Assembly: GCF_000447795.1 (NCBI RefSeq)
Contig: NZ_AUNI01000021.1
Span: forward strand, 62,001 to 126,000
From: Bacteriovorax sp. Seq25_V
GTDB taxonomy: Bacteria; Bdellovibrionota; Bacteriovoracia; Bacteriovoracales; Bacteriovoracaceae
DNA: 64,000 nucleotides
Direction: 5' to 3'
Shown piece by piece: positions 27,748 through 50,837 of the stretch (positions are counted from its first letter, which is position 1; each line of letters begins with the position of its first letter). The notes under the pieces were generated by a model. That model was not told the DNA's origin. It was given only the letters and a program-made list of their open reading frames with translations, and ran no database searches. Both the position numbers and the translations under genes were made by a program.

Positions 27748-29265
27748 TTAATAATTAAAACTCGCACCAATTTTAAAATTTAAATTTTTATGTTTTACAA
27801 CTGTGTCACTATTCTCAAATTCTGCTGAATTTGAAATATATTCCATAGCCCCTACAAATGCAGTATTTGGGCTATATTGATAACTTCCACCAACTTCAAG
27901 ATTGAAACTTTTAACAGTGTCAGCTTCTCCGTATATTTTTAATGTTTCTTCATAACCTGGGCTTAACATAAACTCAATTAACAAATGTGCTCTAACATCT
28001 TTAATAATTGGCATCGAACCTTTTCCACCCAGAAAAATTCCTTTATAAACGGTTTCTGTAATACCGTCCGCCACTTTATTGTCATAACCATATGTATAAG
28101 AACCATATCCAATATACCCATCAAGTTGCGGTCCATAGAAGAAGCCTAGTGGTAAATAGCGATATCCAACTTTCAGTTTAAATTTTGAGAAGCTAAGTGA
28201 GTTTGAGTCACTATTAAAAGTACCCTCTTTCTTCGAGTGACTTCCAAAATGCTTATCAATATCGAGACCGGCCCAATAGTTTCTCGTAGCCCATATTTCT
28301 GCCGCTAGACCTACACCGATATTTAGACCACCAATTTCTTTTCCGCTAGAGCTATTATCAATCCTTGCTGATCCTGATCCCAAATTTAGATATCCTGCTA
28401 TAAAGCCAAGCTTTCCAAAGCTACTCGATTCATCATCTGGTCTTATTTGAACACCATACTCTAGAGATTCATTATTTTTTACATCAGCCGTATTCTTTGA
28501 AATCAAAATCCAATCATCTACTTGAACTAATGTTTCTCTTTCATATTTTAAAATCTTAGCTTGCGCCTGTGACTGCCCTACATGAAAGAGCTTAGCGGTT
28601 GCTATTGGCATTGTTCTCCACTCTACGATTTCTTTTAAAAGAGGATGCCTTTGTTTTTTTACTGGTCTAACAACATTGATTTCATAGCCATTATAAATGC
28701 CCGCTTGTTGTCCAAGGTCAATTGTAAATTGTGTACCAAGTACTCCCACAACTCTTGCGTCGTAAGGTATATTTTTTTCATAGACATCAAGCCAGTTATT
28801 AACCGTCTGTGCGATTACTTCAATTTCATCACTTTCAATAGCTGTCACCTGATTGAAGTAAACATCTTTACCATTTGGCCCAAGTACTGTTACTTCAATA
28901 TTCATACCCTTCGCCATGCTATCAAGTTTAATCTTTATCAAACTTCCAGCTTGAGTTTTTTCCGATACAATTTTCAAAACTTCTGGATTATTTAATGCCT
29001 GATCTAAAGTATTTTTATAGTTTGTAAGAATGTTGATAATTTCTGAATTAGATTGGTAGTAACACCACTTCGATGCTTTCAAATATCTTTCAACGAGGTC
29101 ATAAACTTTAAAACCTATTGCTCCACCAACTGAATCTCTCACTGGTAAAATCATACACTTTCTCATACTCGGTTCTGCGTTTGCCACCGCTGCGAGTAAA
29201 GTAAAAGCTATTATTAGTTTACATAGGTAATTGAGGTAGTTCTTCACTGATCTTCTCTCTTTCAT
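27748..29265 (-). CDS. Exported protein with C-terminal beta-barrel-like domain
   Basis: 505 residues. Signal peptide ending AVANA, then a periplasmic-type N-terminal domain (about 26-250) with two Cys. A Gly/aromatic-rich C-terminal section (about 275-505) has alternating strands ending FKIGASFNY, typical of an outer-membrane barrel. The first domain has features of a TolB/CsgG-like ligand fold (LPVRDSVGGAIGFKVYDLVERYL) but I cannot name it. The start at 29265 overlaps the HTH gene by 47 nt. An in-frame GTG at 29247 with GAGAGAAG before it would give a cleaner signal peptide and is a credible alternative. Confidence 0.72.
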   Translation of the reverse strand: MKERRSVKNYLNYLCKLIIAFTLLAAVANAEPSMRKCMILPVRDSVGGAIGFKVYDLVERYLKASKWCYYQSNSEIINILTNYKNTLDQALNNPEVLKIVSEKTQAGSLIKIKLDSMAKGMNIEVTVLGPNGKDVYFNQVTAIESDEIEVIAQTVNNWLDVYEKNIPYDARVVGVLGTQFTIDLGQQAGIYNGYEINVVRPVKKQRHPLLKEIVEWRTMPIATAKLFHVGQSQAQAKILKYERETLVQVDDWILISKNTADVKNNESLEYGVQIRPDDESSSFGKLGFIAGYLNLGSGSARIDNSSSGKEIGGLNIGVGLAAEIWATRNYWAGLDIDKHFGSHSKKEGTFNSDSNSLSFSKFKLKVGYRYLPLGFFYGPQLDGYIGYGSYTYGYDNKVADGITETVYKGIFLGGKGSMPIIKDVRAHLLIEFMLSPGYEETLKIYGEADTVKSFNLEVGGSYQYSPNTAFVGAMEYISNSAEFENSDTVVKHKNLNFKIGASFNY

Positions 29266-29518
29266 AAAGTTTAACTAGCATTTTATATTCGTTATTTTCT
29301 TCTTCCAGTAATTTTAATCTGAGCTTGAGCATTGCTATTTCATTCTTATAGAAATGTTCATTTAAAGTCGTTTTTTGCTCTGTCACTTCATCACATTGTA
29401 TAAAGTATTTTCCATCAACAAATTTCGATTCAACTTTTTTATGTCTGATGTATCTTCTAATTGTAGATACTGATATATTTTTTAGAGTAGAATACTCAGT
29501 TATTGTCATCCAATTCAT
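29219..29518 (-). CDS. Small helix-turn-helix protein with coiled-coil tail
   Basis: 99 residues. The N-terminal 45 residues (MTITEYSTLKNISVSTIRRYIRHKKVESKFVDGKYFI, split here only for description) look like a MerR/excisionase-type winged HTH. Residues 55-92 are a heptad-rich helix (EIAMLKLRLKLLEEEN), suggesting a dimer. It overlaps the downstream exported protein gene by 47 nt, so it may regulate or be coupled to it. The target is unknown. Start ATG near 29518; an internal Met4 is an alternative. Confidence 0.7.
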   Translation of the reverse strand: MNWMTITEYSTLKNISVSTIRRYIRHKKVESKFVDGKYFIQCDEVTEQKTTLNEHFYKNEIAMLKLRLKLLEEENNEYKMLVKLYEREKISEELPQLPM

Positions 29519-30801: not shown

Positions 30802-31341
30802 TTATAGATCTAATGGTAAACTTACACCAAGAAGAACAAAGTTTTCTTCTAGTTTGTTAGTTAATGATTTTCCGTCAAACTCGTCATATGACATCATTCT
30901 ATACTCTAGGTTTAGCGATACGAATGGTAAACCTGTAAAACCTACACCAAATCCAATACCGTCTCCGCTATACTCTTTACCTTTGTTTGTACCTTCTTGT
31001 TGCTCAAGATTTGTACTTAAGTAGTAAGTTGCCCAAGCTCTAAGTAGAATTGGTAATTCGTATCCTGCAAATAAACCTAAATTGTTCTGAGAAAATTTAG
31101 TTTTAGTTTTAACACCAGCAGTTTCACCCTCAAGATCACTTTCTGCACCCATTGAATAGTCAAGACCACCCATAAATCCAAGCATTGTATAACCAACACG
31201 CCCACCAATTACTGTTGTATTGAATGTATAGTCAGTAGCTCCCGCATCACCAGATCCAAGTTGATATCCAAGATATGGCTCAACTAAAAATCCTGCACTC
31301 GCACTAACTGTCATAAATACCGCTAATAATAATTTTTTCAT
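30802..31341 (-). CDS. Small outer-membrane beta-barrel protein
   Basis: 179 residues. Signal peptide MKKLLLAVFMTVSASA, then about eight amphipathic strands with Gly and aromatic residues (PYLGYQLGSGD, LGLFAGYELP, VSLNLEYRMMSYDEF) ending LLGVSLPLDL. This is the size and pattern of an OmpA/OmpW/OmpX-type eight-strand barrel. Function unknown. It lies 10 nt downstream of the exported protein gene 31352-32908 on the same strand. Confidence 0.75.
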   Translation of the reverse strand: MKKLLLAVFMTVSASAGFLVEPYLGYQLGSGDAGATDYTFNTTVIGGRVGYTMLGFMGGLDYSMGAESDLEGETAGVKTKTKFSQNNLGLFAGYELPILLRAWATYYLSTNLEQQEGTNKGKEYSGDGIGFGVGFTGLPFVSLNLEYRMMSYDEFDGKSLTNKLEENFVLLGVSLPLDL

Positions 31342-31351
31342 TTTTTCTCTC

Positions 31352-32908
31352 CTAAATTTGCTCTATCAAGTACAAAGAATCTGTACAAAAGCTTTGATAA
31401 TATTTTGTGTTGTTATTTATATCTTTTAACTTCATGTTAATTACTCCGTAATCATTACTATAGACAAATATCTTCTCTGTCAGTCCAGTTAACTCTTTTG
31501 AAAGTGTTCCATCTTTATCCATATAATAAATGTCATAAGATCCTGTTTCCTGCGTCGATGTCACTTGTGCATGGAAATCTTTTAGTGCGTTCTTAAGATT
31601 TAACTGAATAAAGCATGCTTTAGTATTATCATCTATTCCAAGTATACTTTTTAAATATGGAATAAAATCTTCTCCAGGAAGTTTTATTTTACTATCCTCT
31701 CCAACTCCGACAAATATTTTTTGCCCATAATCGATTTCGAGATATTTTCTGAACGCATAGTCTCTTCGTGGAATTTTCAATTTATATCGATTAAGTCCAA
31801 TCTTCGTTGATGCTATATTCGTATTAAAAAACCTGATCCTTTTATCGTTCATTTCAATCGGTAACGTTTTTTTAGAAAGTAAATTTTCCTCTACCAATTC
31901 AAATTCTAAGTATTCTTTCGAATGAAAATTCGACTCGTCATAGGTCACTTCCCCACGGGTTAAATGAATAATTTTTTCTGACATATCACCTTTCATATCC
32001 ATATACCTAATTAAGGTATTCCCTGGTTCTATATCAATGTATAACTCATACTGGTATTCATTATCGACCCTTGCTTCTTTCAAGTTATGATCAAGATAAA
32101 TCTTCTTTTTAAATTTTCCATCTAACGATGTTGAATCTATTTCTTCACCAAGATTGATCAGAAGATAGGCACCATACTCTTCAGTTTGGATATACTTTCT
32201 TACCATTGTATCAAAGGTACTTTCATCAAATAGTGGTATATTAAATATGTCATTTTCTCGAACAGCTAATTCAAAGTTAGTTCTCATCACATTTCTAGCG
32301 GCAATAGAACCTTTAAAATTGTAGAATCGATCATCGTTCGCAATTGGAATTTTAATTACTCCGGTTCCGCTATCTGTAAACAACTGATTTGTGTCGTAAT
32401 TTGGGACCAAGTCAAAATCAGTTACTCCCTTTTTCTCAAGGCCTTTACTACCAACGATCGAAGTTTTTATTTCAAAATAACTTTCTATATTTCTTCTAGC
32501 AGCTGAAGAAATAAACTGACTAAAATCTATATTATCAAATTGTGGGACTTGTTTTTTTTGTGGTTGTTTAGAGACCTTATTTTTAGTCTCAAGCTTTACT
32601 ACAGGTACTTCTTTTGGGGTTTTTATAACTTCTTTATTTTCAGGGGTGTCGTAAGTAAAGAACACCATTTCTTCATCTTTACTTATTTTTTTTGTCTTTG
32701 TTTTCTTATCTTTCATGACTGATGAACTAATTTGCTTTATTTCATCTTCTTGTTTTTCAGATTTTTTAAGTAGCTCATCCCAGTTAATGTTCTTTGTTTT
32801 AATACTGATTTTATAAGGTTTAAAGTCATGGACATTAGTGTCTGAAAATTCATTCCCAAAACAAACTAAGGTACTGAAAATTAATGTAAAAAGCAGCTTT
32901 AATAACAT
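31352..32908 (-). CDS. Exported protein of unknown function
   Basis: 518 residues not recognised. Signal peptide MLLKLLFTLIFSTLVCFG. Then a Lys/Glu-rich low-complexity linker (about 25-125: KKSEKQEDEIKQ, TPKEVPVVKLETK) and a long mixed region rich in beta strands and charged residues (about 130-518) with two Cys late in the protein. The layout, exported plus charged linker plus beta domain, resembles periplasm-spanning envelope proteins. It precedes the small barrel gene, suggesting a common envelope role (inference). Confidence 0.65.
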   Translation of the reverse strand: MLLKLLFTLIFSTLVCFGNEFSDTNVHDFKPYKISIKTKNINWDELLKKSEKQEDEIKQISSSVMKDKKTKTKKISKDEEMVFFTYDTPENKEVIKTPKEVPVVKLETKNKVSKQPQKKQVPQFDNIDFSQFISSAARRNIESYFEIKTSIVGSKGLEKKGVTDFDLVPNYDTNQLFTDSGTGVIKIPIANDDRFYNFKGSIAARNVMRTNFELAVRENDIFNIPLFDESTFDTMVRKYIQTEEYGAYLLINLGEEIDSTSLDGKFKKKIYLDHNLKEARVDNEYQYELYIDIEPGNTLIRYMDMKGDMSEKIIHLTRGEVTYDESNFHSKEYLEFELVEENLLSKKTLPIEMNDKRIRFFNTNIASTKIGLNRYKLKIPRRDYAFRKYLEIDYGQKIFVGVGEDSKIKLPGEDFIPYLKSILGIDDNTKACFIQLNLKNALKDFHAQVTSTQETGSYDIYYMDKDGTLSKELTGLTEKIFVYSNDYGVINMKLKDINNNTKYYQSFCTDSLYLIEQI

Positions 32909-39376: not shown

Positions 39377-40306
39377 TTATTTTAATAGATATTCGTATAG
39401 GTCATTAAACTCTGCTTCATTTGAAAAGTTAAGAACAATTTGTCCTCCACCTTTTTTATCTGTTTTAATGCCAAAATGATAACCTGTACTTTGTTCAAGT
39501 TTTTGTCTGTACACATCTAACTTTTCAGAAAAATAAGATGCCTGTGCAGTGTCCTTGTTTTTTGCTGGTGATTTTTTACTCTTAATTAGTTTTTCAGTTT
39601 CACGAACAGAAAGTTTTTTTACAATTGCTTCATTCGCAATTCTTAAACAATCCTCTCTCTCCTTAACTGCAGCAAGAACTTTTGCATGCCCAAAAGAAAG
39701 TAATTCTTTTTGAAGCATATCTACAACATCTCTCGGTAGTTTTAAGATTCTAAGAAAGTTTGCAACTGTAGATCTATCTTTACCAACTTTCTTTGAAACT
39801 TCTTCTTGAGTTAGTTGATATTCTTCCATTAATTGAAAGTAAGCTAATGCTTCTTCAACACAGTTTAAATCACTTCTCTGAACGTTTTCGATGATGGCCA
39901 TAACCATCTTCTCTCTATCTGTTGCTCTTTTAATAACAACAGGAACTTCTTTTAGTCCTGCCATTTTAGAAGCTCTTAATCTTCTTTCTCCTGCAACAAG
40001 TTCAAATCCAACATCAGTTTTTACAACGATTAGTGGTTGTATAACTCCGTTCTCTTTTATTGAATTAGAAAGTTCTAATAATAGCTCTTCCTTAAATATT
40101 TTTCTTGGTTGATTTGGATTAGTTTTAATTTGATCAATACTAACCATATATGGTGATGCATCTTCTTTCTTTTCAGCCTGAACAGTTGTATTCGTCGAAG
40201 CTTGTGAATCCATTTCCATTTTACTCTTTGCTTGTAAAAAAGGATTGCTTGCTTGTGAATCAATAAGTGATGCTATTCCCTTACCTAGTGCCATTTTCTT
40301 TGCCAT
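39377..40306 (-). CDS. parB: Chromosome partitioning protein ParB
   Basis: CTP-dependent DNA clamp that loads at parS and spreads. 309 residues. N-terminal ALGKGIASLI as in many ParB, CTPase motifs GERRLRAS and ENVQRSDLN, HTH domain (TQEEVSKKVGKDRSTVANFLRI), and a C-terminal dimerisation domain. 11 nt after parA. Four parS-like sites are found close by (41266, 43006, 43723, 43740). Confidence 0.96.
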   Translation of the reverse strand: MAKKMALGKGIASLIDSQASNPFLQAKSKMEMDSQASTNTTVQAEKKEDASPYMVSIDQIKTNPNQPRKIFKEELLLELSNSIKENGVIQPLIVVKTDVGFELVAGERRLRASKMAGLKEVPVVIKRATDREKMVMAIIENVQRSDLNCVEEALAYFQLMEEYQLTQEEVSKKVGKDRSTVANFLRILKLPRDVVDMLQKELLSFGHAKVLAAVKEREDCLRIANEAIVKKLSVRETEKLIKSKKSPAKNKDTAQASYFSEKLDVYRQKLEQSTGYHFGIKTDKKGGGQIVLNFSNEAEFNDLYEYLLK

Positions 40307-40317
40307 TTACTATCCCC

Positions 40318-41166
40318 TTATTGAATTTGATTCGACATCATAGAATTATCAACTTCTGCCACTCTTGGTATCGTTGGTAATTCGTCTACAATTTTCGACT
40401 CTCTTTCCTTGAGAATAACTTCCTTCGCTAATGCCAGGTATGCTTCACTACCTTTAGACTCAATATCATAAAGAATAATTGGCTTACCAAAACTTGGACA
40501 CTCAGCTAGTTTTACATTTCTTGGGATAACAGCTTCGAATACTTTATCACCAAAGTGTTTTCTAATCTCACTACAAACTTGCTTGTGAAGACTTGCCCTA
40601 CTATCAAACATAGTTAGAAGAATTCCTTCCATCTCTAAATCTGGATTAAGATTTGCCTTAATTAGCTTAACTGTATTGATTAACTGAGCAAGCCCTTCCA
40701 TTGCAAGATATTCCGTCTGCATTGGAACTAGGAAACTATCAGCTGCATTTAAAGCATTAACTGTAAGTAGACCTAGTGACGGTGGACAATCAATTAGAAT
40801 ATAGTCGTAGTAATCTCTAATTGCTCTGAATGCATTTTTTAATTTTGCTTCTCTAGCAAATTCAGAAACTAGCTCAATCTCTGCCCCAGATAAGTTATTA
40901 TCAGATGGACAGATATGTAGATGTGGTAGTTCAGTTTCGTAGATCGCTTCTTTAATATCTACATTACCAATCATTGCATGATAGATATTACAGTGATTAT
41001 ATTGCGATGCGTCTAACCCTAAACTAATAGAACCGTTTCCTTGTGGATCGAGATCAATTACCAGAGTTTTCTTATCAGCTACTGCTAAGCAAGCTGCAAG
41101 GTTGATAGTAGTTGTAGTCTTACCTACACCACCTTTCTGGTTCATCATTGCTATGATTTTAGCCAT
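40318..41166 (-). CDS. parA: Chromosome partitioning ATPase ParA
   Basis: Deviant Walker-A ATPase that positions ParB-parS complexes on the nucleoid. 282 residues. MNQKGGVGKTTTTINLAACLA at the N-terminus, DLDPQGNGSISLG, and DYILIDCPPSLGLLTVNAL (Walker B). A 25-residue C-terminal tail beyond the core. First of the parA-parB-bactofilin run, 36 nt after rsmG. Confidence 0.97.
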   Translation of the reverse strand: MAKIIAMMNQKGGVGKTTTTINLAACLAVADKKTLVIDLDPQGNGSISLGLDASQYNHCNIYHAMIGNVDIKEAIYETELPHLHICPSDNNLSGAEIELVSEFAREAKLKNAFRAIRDYYDYILIDCPPSLGLLTVNALNAADSFLVPMQTEYLAMEGLAQLINTVKLIKANLNPDLEMEGILLTMFDSRASLHKQVCSEIRKHFGDKVFEAVIPRNVKLAECPSFGKPIILYDIESKGSEAYLALAKEVILKERESKIVDELPTIPRVAEVDNSMMSNQIQ

Positions 41167-41202: not shown

Positions 41203-41862
41203 TTAGAGTAATTTTGATAGACTGACAATATTTTTATTTTTATTTCTTGTGAAATCTCTGATCATTGTTCCACGTAGAACAGTCTTATTTTTTAGAACAA
41301 TAACCATACGACCTTCAGTGCCAGGAATATCGATTAGCTTCTCTTCAACAATCTCCCACTGATTCCCAAGCCAATCAAGGTCTTCAAGTTCGTAGAAATT
41401 TGGCCCCTTGTAGAAAAGAACATGAACTGTTTTATCTGTAATGATTCCCGGTAAGAGATTTTCCACTGTCGAAACGGCCTTGAAAGACACCAGGCAATCT
41501 TGATCTAAATATACATTCTCATATCTCTGGTGATAGGTTTTAACATTATTAATCCCCATCTTTTGTGCAATCTCTCCTACTACTTTTGCCTTCTTTCCTC
41601 TTGCCTCAAATCCGAGATATTTTTTATCTGGATTGTGATATGCCATTGGTAGCAATGGAAAACCACCACCAAAACCGACATCGATATGAATCTTAGTATT
41701 CTTATATATTTTTTCTAAGATTTTAGATTCTTCAAAAGGTATAATCGAATCCCTATATTGTTTATTATAGAAGTCTTCGTAAGAATTAATTCTAGTAAGA
41801 TTAATTCCAGCATACTCGCCATTAACAAGGTCGAGATACTTTGTGCAAAATTCATTTTCCAT
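41203..41862 (-). CDS. rsmG: 16S rRNA (guanine-N7) methyltransferase RsmG
   Basis: SAM-dependent methylation of G527 of 16S rRNA. 219 residues from ATG 41862, which overlaps the last base of the mnmG stop (TAATG); the longer in-frame extension to 41970 runs through the mnmG 3' end and is rejected. SAM motif I reads DVGFGGGFPLLPMAY, close to the usual DxGSGxGxPG. The gene contains a parS-like site at 41266-41281. Confidence 0.92.
   Translation of the reverse strand: MENEFCTKYLDLVNGEYAGINLTRINSYEDFYNKQYRDSIIPFEESKILEKIYKNTKIHIDVGFGGGFPLLPMAYHNPDKKYLGFEARGKKAKVVGEIAQKMGINNVKTYHQRYENVYLDQDCLVSFKAVSTVENLLPGIITDKTVHVLFYKGPNFYELEDLDWLGNQWEIVEEKLIDIPGTEGRMVIVLKNKTVLRGTMIRDFTRNKNKNIVSLSKLL
41266..41281. 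promoter_or_regulatory. parS-like ParB-binding site in rsmG
   Basis: TGTTCCACGTAGAACA, one mismatch from the perfect palindrome TGTTCCACGTGGAACA and close to the general bacterial parS consensus TGTTTCACGTGAAACA. Confidence 0.8.
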
Positions 41863-43722: not shown

Positions 43723-43755
43723 AGTTCCACATGGAACAATGTTCTACGTGGAACA
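43723..43755. promoter_or_regulatory. Tandem parS-like sites upstream of mnmG
   Basis: AGTTCCACATGGAACA (43723-43738) and TGTTCTACGTGGAACA (43740-43755), separated by 1 nt, in the mnmE-mnmG intergenic region. Each differs by one or two bases from the local consensus. parS clusters near parAB and oriC are the rule. Confidence 0.85.
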
Positions 43756-47584: not shown

Positions 47585-49129
47585 ATGCAAGGAAACTTTC
47601 CTTTTAGCCAATTCTTGAAATCAGGCAACAGTATCAATAATTTCGACCACTTAAGCAATATTCCAGTTTCCACTCCTACCAATAATCAAGAGCTTATTGG
47701 CGACTTTGACGTGGAAGAAATCGAAATGATGAACCAAGAGATTCACAAGGTTCTACAAAACTCTGTAACTACTCAAAAATACACAGCTTTTTTTGAAGGT
47801 TCATTCAATTTAAAGACTATCAATCAAGGAACAGCCATTTTCACTGTTCCTACTCAATTTATTAAGTCAATGGTTGAAAAGAATCTTCCACAGATCTCAG
47901 AGTCAATTTTTTCAATTCTAGGCAAGCAATATCAAATAGATATAAGCGTTGAGGGAACAGCAGATCAACAAACTGCCCCTATAGAACCGCCAAAGGCAAG
48001 ATCTGCAGCTGAAGTCTCATTCAAGCTAGATCTTGAGCCAAAGAAAGAAGACCTACTCTCTAAAGTAGAAAGTAAATATATTGACCACATCAACCCTGAA
48101 CACACGGGAATTCTAATCGACCCCGTGAAGAAGTTCACAAATTTTGTTGTTGGACCATCAAATAATATGGCCTACGCGGCAGCCCTAGCGATCGCAAAAC
48201 ATCCAGGTAAAGCAGGGAAATATCCATCCTTATATATCCACAGTAATTCAGGGCTTGGTAAAACTCACCTACTCCATGCAATTGCTAATGGAGCGAAGGA
48301 GAATTATCCGCATTTCATCATTTGTCTTATTACAGCTAGAGATTTTATGAGAGAGATGATCGATGCAATTAAAGCAGAACAATTACACGAATTCAGAAAG
48401 AAGTATTCTGAGAAAGTTGATATCTTAATGATCGATGACGTTCATGAGTTAAAAGGACGTGAAGGAACTCAAAGAGAATTCTTTCATATCTTTAATGAGC
48501 TATACAATAAAGGTAAGCAGCTTATCTTTACGTCTGATAAGACTCCACAGGAGATTAATGGACTTGAAGAACGCATTAGAACAAGGTTGCAATGGGGTCT
48601 TGTTGTAGACATCCAAAAACCAGATTTTGAGACTCGTACGGCCATCATTAAAACGAAAGCTGACGAACTCGACCTATTTTTGTCTGATGACATTATTAAT
48701 CTTATCGCTTGTAACGTTAAAAATAGTATCAGAGAGCTTGAAGGATCATTAATTAAGCTATCAGCATATACAGACATCATGAAGGTCGATATCGACATTG
48801 AAATGGTTAAAGATGTACTTGCATTGAAAGAACATGAAGACGAAAGAAAGGTAACACTAGAAATCGTTGCAAAAACTACATCACATCATTTCAGAATACC
48901 AATTGCTGATCTCAAGTCTAAATCGCGTACCAAAGATATTGCCAACGCAAGATTCATTGCGATGTACCTTTCTCGTAAGATTGTTGGTGCTACCCATGAA
49001 GAAATTGGAAAATTCTATGGTGGACGTGATCATAGCTCTGTTGTTCACGCGGAACAAAAAATTACAAAACAATTAAGCAGTGACTCACAACTCTCAAGAG
49101 ACGTGATGACAATTGAAAATTCACTGTAA
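47585..49129 (+). CDS. dnaA: Replication initiator DnaA
   Basis: 514 residues from ATG 47585, with GGAG 9 nt upstream. A 75-nt longer frame exists but has no ribosome site. A non-conserved N-terminal extension of about 47 residues precedes domain I (MNQEIHKVLQNSV...). An alternative start at Met48 (47726) would remove it. Linker domain II (about 120-160) carries APIEP at 131-135, from a palindrome copy. AAA+ Walker A NSGLGKTH at 221-228, Walker B LMIDDVHEL, domain IV DNA-binding signature GGRDHSSVVHA (usually GGRDHSTVLHA). Confidence 0.97.
   Translation: MQGNFPFSQFLKSGNSINNFDHLSNIPVSTPTNNQELIGDFDVEEIEMMNQEIHKVLQNSVTTQKYTAFFEGSFNLKTINQGTAIFTVPTQFIKSMVEKNLPQISESIFSILGKQYQIDISVEGTADQQTAPIEPPKARSAAEVSFKLDLEPKKEDLLSKVESKYIDHINPEHTGILIDPVKKFTNFVVGPSNNMAYAAALAIAKHPGKAGKYPSLYIHSNSGLGKTHLLHAIANGAKENYPHFIICLITARDFMREMIDAIKAEQLHEFRKKYSEKVDILMIDDVHELKGREGTQREFFHIFNELYNKGKQLIFTSDKTPQEINGLEERIRTRLQWGLVVDIQKPDFETRTAIIKTKADELDLFLSDDIINLIACNVKNSIRELEGSLIKLSAYTDIMKVDIDIEMVKDVLALKEHEDERKVTLEIVAKTTSHHFRIPIADLKSKSRTKDIANARFIAMYLSRKIVGATHEEIGKFYGGRDHSSVVHAEQKITKQLSSDSQLSRDVMTIENSL
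47974..47989. repeat. Degenerate copy of the 16-bp palindrome in dnaA linker
   Basis: TGCCCCTATAGAACCG, half-conserved, in the codons of the domain II linker; read in the same frame as the mnmE copies (PIEP versus SIEP). Confidence 0.6.
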
Positions 49130-49165
49130 AATACCTGATAAATTCACATAACAATTTAATAAACC

Positions 49166-49395
49166 TGACTAGTCACGGCCCTGTTAACGCAGGGCCTTTT
49201 TATTTTCCACGGCCAATAGAAAGTTATCAACAAAAATGACTAGTCAATGTGAATAATATTTTCTTATAATTACAGAGACTTAGTGTATATATCAAGAAAT
49301 TATCACCGGCCGTGGATAAAATATAATTAACGGCCTCAACATGTGAATAGAAAAGTTATCAACAAGTGGATAAAATGTTGGGCCATGACTAGTCA
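49166..49395. repeat. Three copies of palindrome TGACTAGTCA around oriC
   Basis: Exact 10-bp copies at 49166-49175, 49237-49246 and 49386-49395. The first precedes the dnaA terminator stem; the other two lie among DnaA boxes. Confidence 0.8.
49177..49205 (+). terminator. dnaA terminator
   Basis: Stem GGCCCTG/CAGGGCC with a 6-nt TTAACG loop followed by TTTTTATTTT, 48 nt after the dnaA stop. Confidence 0.85.
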
Positions 49396-49724
49396 AAATA
49401 GACAAAAAGACGACATTGAAAAGAATCGAATAAATATTAACTATTGGCCGTGAATAACTATCTTAAAAACGTCAATAATTGTTCAAAAACTTTTAATATA
49501 CGCATGATGCAAAAAGTTAGAAAATAGTTTACAACGGCCGTCAACATAGGCCAAAATTTGATAAAGCAATACCACAAGGGTGTTTAAGGCTTTTAAACTT
49601 ATCCACAAAGTAATATATATAATAATATAAATATATATATAAAGAGAAAGAGAGTAAGAGCCTTGCTTACTTGAAAAAAGAAATATAAAAACTACTAAGA
49701 TTATTTGAACGTATAGGAATTGAA
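49206..49724. other. Replication origin oriC
   Basis: 519-bp gene-free region between dnaA and dnaN. DnaA-box-like 9-mers: 49224-49232 (+, TTATCAACA), 49248-49256 (-, TTATTCACA), 49300-49308 (+, weak), 49311-49319 (-, TTATCCACG), 49342-49350 (-, one mismatch), 49356-49364 (+) and 49365-49373 (-) back to back, 49449-49457 (-, TTATTCACG), 49599-49607 (+, perfect TTATCCACA). Immediately after the last box lies an almost pure A/T tract (about 49608-49650), a good unwinding element. Seven GGCC sites and two TGACTAGTCA palindromes lie between. Gene directions diverge from here. Confidence 0.9.
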
Positions 49725-50837
49725 ATGCAGATAACGGTACAATCTGAAAATTTAAGAGATGCACTTGGTAAGATACTTACTGTAGTAGATAAAAGAAATT
49801 CACGTCCAATATTAACATACACACTATTCACTGTTAGTAATGATAAAATATATTTATCAGCAACAGATCTTGAAGTATCAGCAAAATATTCTCTAAACGC
49901 AAAAACAGATGGGAATGCTAGCTTCTGTATTAATTCAAAAAACTTATTTGATATATTAAAAGAACTTCCTAACACAGATATCCACATCACGTTGGAAGAT
50001 GGTGAAAATCTCCTAAAAATAAATTGCAATGATATTCATTACTCACTTCTAATTTATGAAAGTGAAGAGTATCCAAAACTACATTTTGGAACTGAGAATA
50101 CTTTTGAAATTAATTCAGACAAACTATTAGATCTAATTAATAAAACTTCATATGCAATCTCGAACGATGAAACAAGACTTCACTTCAATGGAATCTACCT
50201 ACAAGAAGTTGAATCAAAACTGAGAGCAGTAGCAACTGATGGACATAGACTTTCACTAATTGAATTAGATCTAGCTGAACAAAATAACGAAGCACTTGTT
50301 AATGGAATTATTATTCCTAAGAAAGGTGTATTTGAATTAAAGAAAGTTGCTGAATCATATCCAGATCAAACATTAAGAATTTCACTTGATGAATCTTACA
50401 TGTATATCGAAGCAAAAGAAGAGTACCATATTGGTATTAGATTAATTGCTAGAGAATATCCAAAATACCAATCAGTAATTCCAGGTAAGACGACATTCAC
50501 ATTAACAGCTGACAAAGAAGCTATCTTTAATGCTGTTAAGAGAATTAAAATTATGTCGAATGAAAAGTCTAACGGTATTAAAGTTTTAATCAAAGATAAC
50601 TCACTAACAGTTATGGCAAACCACCCATCACTTGGTGATGCAAGAGAGACAATTCCAGTAGATTACGAAGGTAAAGAAATGGAAATTGGATTTAATGCAA
50701 AATACTTAATGGATTCATTTTCAATTTTAGATTCTGAAGACATTATCCTTGAATTAAATAACGAACTAAGTCCTGTATTAGTAAGATCAAATAATTTACA
50801 GAATTATCTTGGTATTATTATGCCACTTAGAATTTGA
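49725..50837 (+). CDS. dnaN: DNA polymerase III beta sliding clamp
   Basis: 370 residues forming one half of the ring that tethers DNA polymerase III. Starts MQITVQSENLRDALGKI; three repeats of the clamp fold; ATDLEVSA, ATDGHRLSLIE and the C-terminal LVRSNNLQNYLGIIMPLRI. AGGA 6 nt before ATG. Stop overlaps the recF start by 1 nt. Confidence 0.97.
   Translation: MQITVQSENLRDALGKILTVVDKRNSRPILTYTLFTVSNDKIYLSATDLEVSAKYSLNAKTDGNASFCINSKNLFDILKELPNTDIHITLEDGENLLKINCNDIHYSLLIYESEEYPKLHFGTENTFEINSDKLLDLINKTSYAISNDETRLHFNGIYLQEVESKLRAVATDGHRLSLIELDLAEQNNEALVNGIIIPKKGVFELKKVAESYPDQTLRISLDESYMYIEAKEEYHIGIRLIAREYPKYQSVIPGKTTFTLTADKEAIFNAVKRIKIMSNEKSNGIKVLIKDNSLTVMANHPSLGDARETIPVDYEGKEMEIGFNAKYLMDSFSILDSEDIILELNNELSPVLVRSNNLQNYLGIIMPLRI

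Follow-up and report, generated by a model that had tools for sequence, protein, structure and literature searches.

The window analysed here is a stretch of 64,000 nucleotides (64 kb) from Bacteriovorax sp. Seq25_V. It contains three exact copies of the palindrome TGACTAGTCA within 230 bp at oriC, which raises the question of what binds these sites and what they do at the origin. The copies are at 49166-49175, 49237-49246 and 49386-49395 and there are no others in the window. Only 0.07 copies are expected and none of 100 dinucleotide shuffles of the window contained three or more, which confirms the cluster described in an earlier note on this DNA. That note had suggested a search for further copies, and in the whole assembly (3,450,786 bases; 3.45 Mb) there are none beyond the three at oriC. 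A scan of the window allowing one mismatch gives five matches, including the three exact copies, against a mean of 2.1, which is at background level. The note had argued from Bdellovibrio, where replication is tied to the predatory cycle; the genome belongs to the Bacteriovoracaceae and not to Bdellovibrio proper.

Setting of the palindromes in the origin spacer

All three copies lie inside the 595-bp spacer between dnaA (47585-49129, plus strand) and the gene at 49725-50837 (plus strand), which we take to be dnaN from its position and family. The spacer (oriC, 49130-49724, plus strand) has DnaA boxes, boxes extended by GGCC and an AT-rich stretch near dnaN. Copy 1 immediately precedes the terminator hairpin of dnaA (arms 49177-49183 and 49190-49196, followed by T's). 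Copy 2 is flanked by two convergent DnaA boxes, at distances of 4 and 1 bp: TTATCAACA (49224-49232, plus strand) on its left and TGTGAATAA, entered as TTATTCACA (reverse), on its right (49248-49256, minus strand). Copy 3 has a weaker DnaA box 12 bp away, and a further box, TTATCCACA (49599-49607, plus strand), adjoins the AT-rich stretch before dnaN. TGACTAGTCA is not itself a DnaA box (a 9-mer of the TTATNCACA type); it adjoins the boxes and does not lie over them.

DnaA boxes at these origins often run directly into GGCC (TTATNCACGGCC type). This extension is seen in 27 of 349 DnaA-like 8-mers from 53 origin spacers (it was found in 14 of the 53), compared with 1 of 390 in upstream control DNA. 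The window's spacer has nine GGCC, compared with 92 in the whole 64 kb, and its GGCC-extended boxes lie within 49177-49560.

Sites at oriC beside DnaA boxes are reminiscent of control by CtrA or SeqA. Unlike SeqA targets, however, the 595-bp spacer contains no GATC, compared with 219 in the 64-kb window. The motif also resembles the ParB/parS system in that its sites are palindromic, origin-proximal and partly inside genes. In contrast with parS, TGACTAGTCA is another word, and there is a separate, intact parB (39377-40306, minus strand) beside parA (40318-41166, minus strand). Three centromere-type, parS-like words of the GTTCCACGTGGAAC type are present in the window on the parA side of dnaA (GTTCCACGTAGAAC, 41267-41280; GTTCCACATGGAAC, 43724-43737; and GTTCTACGTGGAAC, 43741-43754). 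They differ in sequence from TGACTAGTCA and lie beside parA, so TGACTAGTCA was rejected as a parS site.

A family-wide motif beside atpC

The family was represented by 95 genomes, of which 85 have a dnaA match. Two samples were drawn from these, namely the origin spacers of 52 relatives and the window (53 in all) and the 20 kb 5' of dnaA from 40 relatives and the window (41 genomes). Most of the genomes left out of the samples had dnaA at the end of a contig, a weaker match or a short contig. There are four spacers (L042, L073, L085 and L086) in which no dnaN start was found and which were cut at a fixed length.

Four of the six genomes of the window's genus have a dnaA match, including the window genome, and the two without are incomplete. 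Two of the three same-genus relatives with a readable origin carry exact copies of TGACTAGTCA in the origin spacer (G012, three; G073, two), which bears out the conservation at relatives' origins that the earlier note had proposed to look for. Neither of the two outcomes that the note named as refuting its reading, copies scattered elsewhere in the genome or a lack of conservation, was therefore observed. Copy 1 has the same position in G073 (spacer L037) and is near the dnaA stop in G012 (spacer L038). Copy 2 is between DnaA boxes in G073 also, with gaps of 5 and 0 bp. In a context similar to that of copy 3, G073, G012 and G010 read TGACTGGCCA. The sequence flanking the TGACTAGTCA copies differs among the same-genus relatives. 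Chance or a repeat artefact is thus an extremely improbable explanation, as the expected number in the window is so low and the sites are kept at relatives' origins in different flanking sequence.

TGACTAGTCA belongs to a wider motif of the family, TGANTANTCA, of which it is one spelling. Some exact copies of TGACTAGTCA in other genera sit 15-16 kb upstream of dnaA, beside atpC. Of the 178 copies of TGANTANTCA in the 41 upstream regions, 146 are at -17 to -14 kb relative to dnaA. Three symmetric control patterns in the same regions total 22, 14 and 5 copies and have no such peak. A wider scan (-40 to +20 kb where covered) shows peaks of TGANTANTCA only at -20/-19 kb, at this cluster and at oriC. 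The exact word TGACTAGTCA was rejected as a marker on its own; 46 of the 95 family genomes have a copy somewhere and these are mostly scattered.

Where the cluster is present it typically has three to eight copies of TGANTANTCA, most commonly spelled TGAGTAGTCA, and spellings relaxed to TGG or TGC in one half are enriched there as well (52 vs 1.5 and 24 vs 3.5, respectively). The layout in six relatives places most of the copies inside the gene after atpC, in one coding sequence and over about 2 kb, and the others mainly in the spacer beside atpC. There is no enrichment of DnaA boxes at the cluster, so a datA-like titration of DnaA was rejected. In the window, the gene after atpC (31352-32908, minus strand) is the counterpart of the gene that hosts most of the cluster in relatives and has no Pfam match. 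The window's sole TGANTANTCA in the homologous stretch is TGAATAGTCA (31153-31162), which may be a chance occurrence. A fast-changing gene without a Pfam match follows atpC in 12 of the 14 genomes with readable gene order.

Genome-wide, TGANTANTCA is hardly commoner than its reversed control and it is the clustering alone that stands out. Forward counts of the motif and of the control are 17 and 11 in G002, 18 and 18 in G087, 12 and 13 in G014, 23 and 17 in G000, 14 and 21 in G012, and 19 and 17 in G073.

A small winged-helix candidate and its linkage to the motif

The motif peak at -20/-19 kb falls at the start of a gene for a 99-aa protein (29219-29518, minus strand in the window), which is our candidate for the binder. 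It combines a predicted winged helix (HTH_17/MerR-like) with a long coiled coil and an LPxLP tail, which is short and usual in this protein family. An AlphaFold2 model (mean pLDDT 88) has a winged helix (E2-5, H6-13, H17-25, E31-34 and E37-42) followed by a single long helix at residues 45-91, the predicted coiled coil. Pfam gives weak matches to HTH_17 (PF12728), DUF3972 (PF13118) and MerR. In an alignment of 20 members HTH_17 is matched in 15 and DUF3972 in 13 (best DUF3972 E 5e-4), all weakly, and the window protein scores below the Pfam cut-off for both. NCBIfam has no family above the cut-off and no model for this protein, and a sequence profile search of the PDB found no convincing relatives. 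Matches to known structures are weak (Z below 8; Foldseek E 0.09 or worse) but are of one kind: Xis, BldC, MerR, pSK1 Par with centromere DNA and RacA with DNA. A single match to the gene was found in each of 66 of the 95 family genomes, and the gene is present in 250 of 290 genomes sampled from the phylum (E below 1e-6).

The presence of the atpC-side cluster follows the gene. Calling a cluster when the stretch from -17.5 to -14 kb had at least two copies of TGANTANTCA, we found it in 30 of 32 genomes with a canonical gene but in none of nine that lack or alter the gene (Fisher 1.6e-7), where the 'divergent gene' group (G010, G071 and, where used, G054) was set after the scores and alignments had been seen. 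When all 256 symmetric patterns were tested, TGANTANTCA ranked first in 26 of the 32 canonical-gene genomes (a few with weak significance) and in none of the other nine, where the parS half-site comes first in several cases. In six genomes without the gene (G007, G053, G005, G060, G023 and G056) its neighbours remain, including the counterpart of the cluster-bearing gene. Neither G071, in which the recognition helix is altered, nor G010 has the atpC-side cluster. In G010 the gene is still an open frame and retains its helix-turn-helix, but it lacks the conserved C-terminal end.

The motif also marks the gene itself. Scanning genome contigs with the candidate protein yielded 80 loci. In the 10 kb on either side of the gene, about 284 copies of TGANTANTCA fall 2-6 kb upstream, another 41 are no more than 500 bp from the gene start, and about 15 lie elsewhere. 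Five symmetric controls show no such peak around the gene. Some of the copies immediately inside the gene may be due to codons for E/D-Y-S. There is no copy at 11 of the 80 loci; most of these are truncated, and two full-length ones (L224 and L232) correspond to genomes of other families (G180 and G184). In other families TGAGTAGTCA is found 25 bp before the predicted gene start (G216), 24 bp before it (G189) and at the start (G298).

The Bdellovibrionaceae-like genomes, a family assignment that we infer from parS layout and genome size, have ParB about 9 kb from dnaA and the candidate gene on the same side, about 33-37 kb away. Six of them were compared, and degenerate copies of the motif are present at the gene's own start only, with no motif cluster at oriC or parS. 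At four such loci there are three or four copies (at most one mismatch) within 200 bp at the gene start, and in each of the four this is the densest stretch of 20 kb. The six genomes each have two perfect GTTCCACGTGGAAC-type copies 7-8 kb from dnaA, and there are no consistent motif copies within 500 bp of parS. Masking of parS by the candidate in Bdellovibrio was therefore rejected. A single TGANTANTCA occurs at +2971 to +3076 after the dnaA start in five of the six; this recurrent copy, about 3.0 kb after the dnaA start, may reflect coding conservation.

A different protein could bind the palindromes, in which case the linkage to the candidate gene would be accidental and stem from common ancestry or from a dispensable locus that gene and sites share. 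We placed 38 of the 41 upstream genomes on a DnaA tree, on which the gene changes at least six times. Only two contrasts are on well-supported branches, and both are in the expected direction. Because two independent contrasts are too few, and because presence and absence follow relatedness, shared ancestry is a possible source of the linkage. In favour of a different binder, independent losses are few, binding by the candidate is putative, and the oriC copies in the window's genus are without exception the perfect TGACTAGTCA, although the atpC-side cluster most often has the spelling TGAGTAGTCA. In contrast, the motif adjoins the start of the candidate gene in several families, the sites vanish while neighbouring genes stay, and G071 and G010, with an altered recognition helix and a shortened protein, lack sites. 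Taken together, these data make a different binder unlikely.

For the window's genus the assignment of the oriC sites to the candidate relies on motif identity and conservation, because G012 lacks the atpC-side cluster despite having kept the gene, and G000 has a single copy at that location. G082, of the same genus, has no oriC sites and no candidate gene was found in it. As this assembly is 87% complete, it may merely not cover the gene.

Proposed origin marking and its alternatives

Additionally, the motif is linked to the gene at oriC. TGANTANTCA is present in 15 of the 39 spacers from genomes with the candidate gene and in none of the 14 whose genomes lack the gene or carry a divergent one (Fisher 0.005). 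Under a Markov model, 0.03 oriC copies are expected for the window's genus and eight are found; for other genera with the gene the numbers are 0.7 and 16. These copies have no fixed place within the spacer. However, 10 of the 24 lie 0-6 bp from a DnaA box, compared with 14% expected (15 genomes; binomial P about 0.001), and only one of the 24 overlaps a box, compared with 26% expected.

The enrichment close to DnaA boxes and the depletion of overlap, together with the position of copy 2 between two boxes here and in G073, would suit a regulator of initiation (the candidate or another protein) that competes or cooperates with DnaA at the palindromes and so times replication. To our knowledge, oriC control of this kind is known in other bacteria only. 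Against such a regulator, 24 of the 39 gene-bearing genomes have no oriC sites and the main cluster has no enrichment of DnaA boxes. We regard it as possible, but not as the probable answer. Of the earlier proposal of an operator for an origin regulator, the regulator is supported by a dedicated DNA-binding candidate, but CtrA- or SeqA-like control of initiation is not, as the cluster is 14-17 kb away and the oriC sites are confined to 15 of 39 spacers. For the same two reasons, marking, anchoring or organisation of the origin fits at least as well as an initiation switch.

The palindromes could instead be transcriptional operators, acting on read-through from dnaA, on dnaN and on the promoter of the candidate gene, with the atpC-side copies serving the end of the ATP-synthase genes or the gene that follows. 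A site at or just before the candidate gene start in several families and the position of copy 1 against the dnaA terminator are consistent with this. Most of the cluster copies, however, are spread over about 2 kb of one coding sequence, unlike promoter operators, and the oriC copies lack a fixed place in the spacer. This explanation is more doubtful still than that of a different binder.

The reading that we favour as probable is that the three palindromes are sites of the candidate protein, gathered in an origin-marking complex in the manner of RacA at its ram sites or of pSK1 Par. The candidate, encoded 20 kb away, would bind the three palindromes, each dimer reading the two half-sites TGANTA of TGANTANTCA. 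Through the long coiled coil, several bound sites may then be drawn together in a single nucleoprotein complex and so mark the origin region. For most of the family we would expect this complex 14-17 kb from dnaA, beside atpC, and in the window's genus it would form mainly inside oriC, beside the DnaA boxes. It could position or compact the origin, perhaps by holding a polar partner through the C-terminal tail. Because copies are within a few bases of DnaA boxes, the complex may also help or hinder DnaA. We therefore favour positioning or compaction of the origin, with a second effect on DnaA possible where the sites adjoin DnaA boxes.

Judging from architecture and layout, the mode of action is most likely similar to that of Bacillus RacA/ram or of a staphylococcal plasmid Par. 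pSK1 Par is a small single protein with a coiled coil. Its winged helix bound to centromere DNA (8csh) superposes on that of the candidate with a middling Z of 5.0 (2.8 A over 43 residues). Unlike the plasmid protein, the candidate is chromosomal, is found phylum-wide and has no sequence match to it. According to extracts of one account, RacA has an N-terminal helix-turn-helix and a C-terminal coiled coil, its ram sites are short and densest near the origin, and it condenses and tethers the origin region (PMC6593407). The modelled candidate likewise has a MerR-like N-terminal winged helix and a C-terminal coiled coil, and the predicted winged helix superposes on RacA-DNA with Z 4.7 (2.6 A over 44 residues). 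Like ram sites, the motif clusters are origin-proximal, at oriC and/or 14-17 kb away, where the candidate would bind them. In contrast with ram sites, which occur over the whole chromosome, they form one tight cluster, which in the window's genus is inside oriC. The PDB profile search to E 10 returned no RacA chain, although 5i41 and 5i44 exist. DivIVA (PF05103), the partner of RacA, has no match in the window genome but has matches in 7 of 14 control genomes; a polar partner other than DivIVA is possible. We suggest a shared design and do not claim membership of the RacA family for the candidate.

The sites, the words TGACTAGTCA and TGAGTAGTCA and the candidate protein had no description that we could find in open-licence PubMed Central full text. 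The B. bacteriovorus oriC has been described, in a text that has no match for 'palindrom' (PMC5124646). Passages of a review note for B. bacteriovorus that replication initiation has no identified regulator, and for Bdellovibrio that a yet unknown protein complex must keep the origin region at the pole (PMC11318664). Part of another paper infers an unknown Bdellovibrio-specific factor acting near parS (PMC10547168). A conserved, putative DNA-binding protein present in one copy, with sites in the origin region, is a concrete candidate for these roles of initiation regulator, anchor or factor near parS, and a defined DNA word makes such roles testable.

A bolder idea, which we consider rather unlikely, is that the predators of this phylum have a second, ParB-independent origin-marking system, in which each genome has a single small winged-helix/coiled-coil protein and origin-proximal sites dedicated to it. 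These sites would have moved into oriC, beside the DnaA boxes, in the window's genus, where the protein that tethers the origin to the pole would also license DnaA. If this were true, such licensing would account for the firing, in each round, of the pole-held origin alone.
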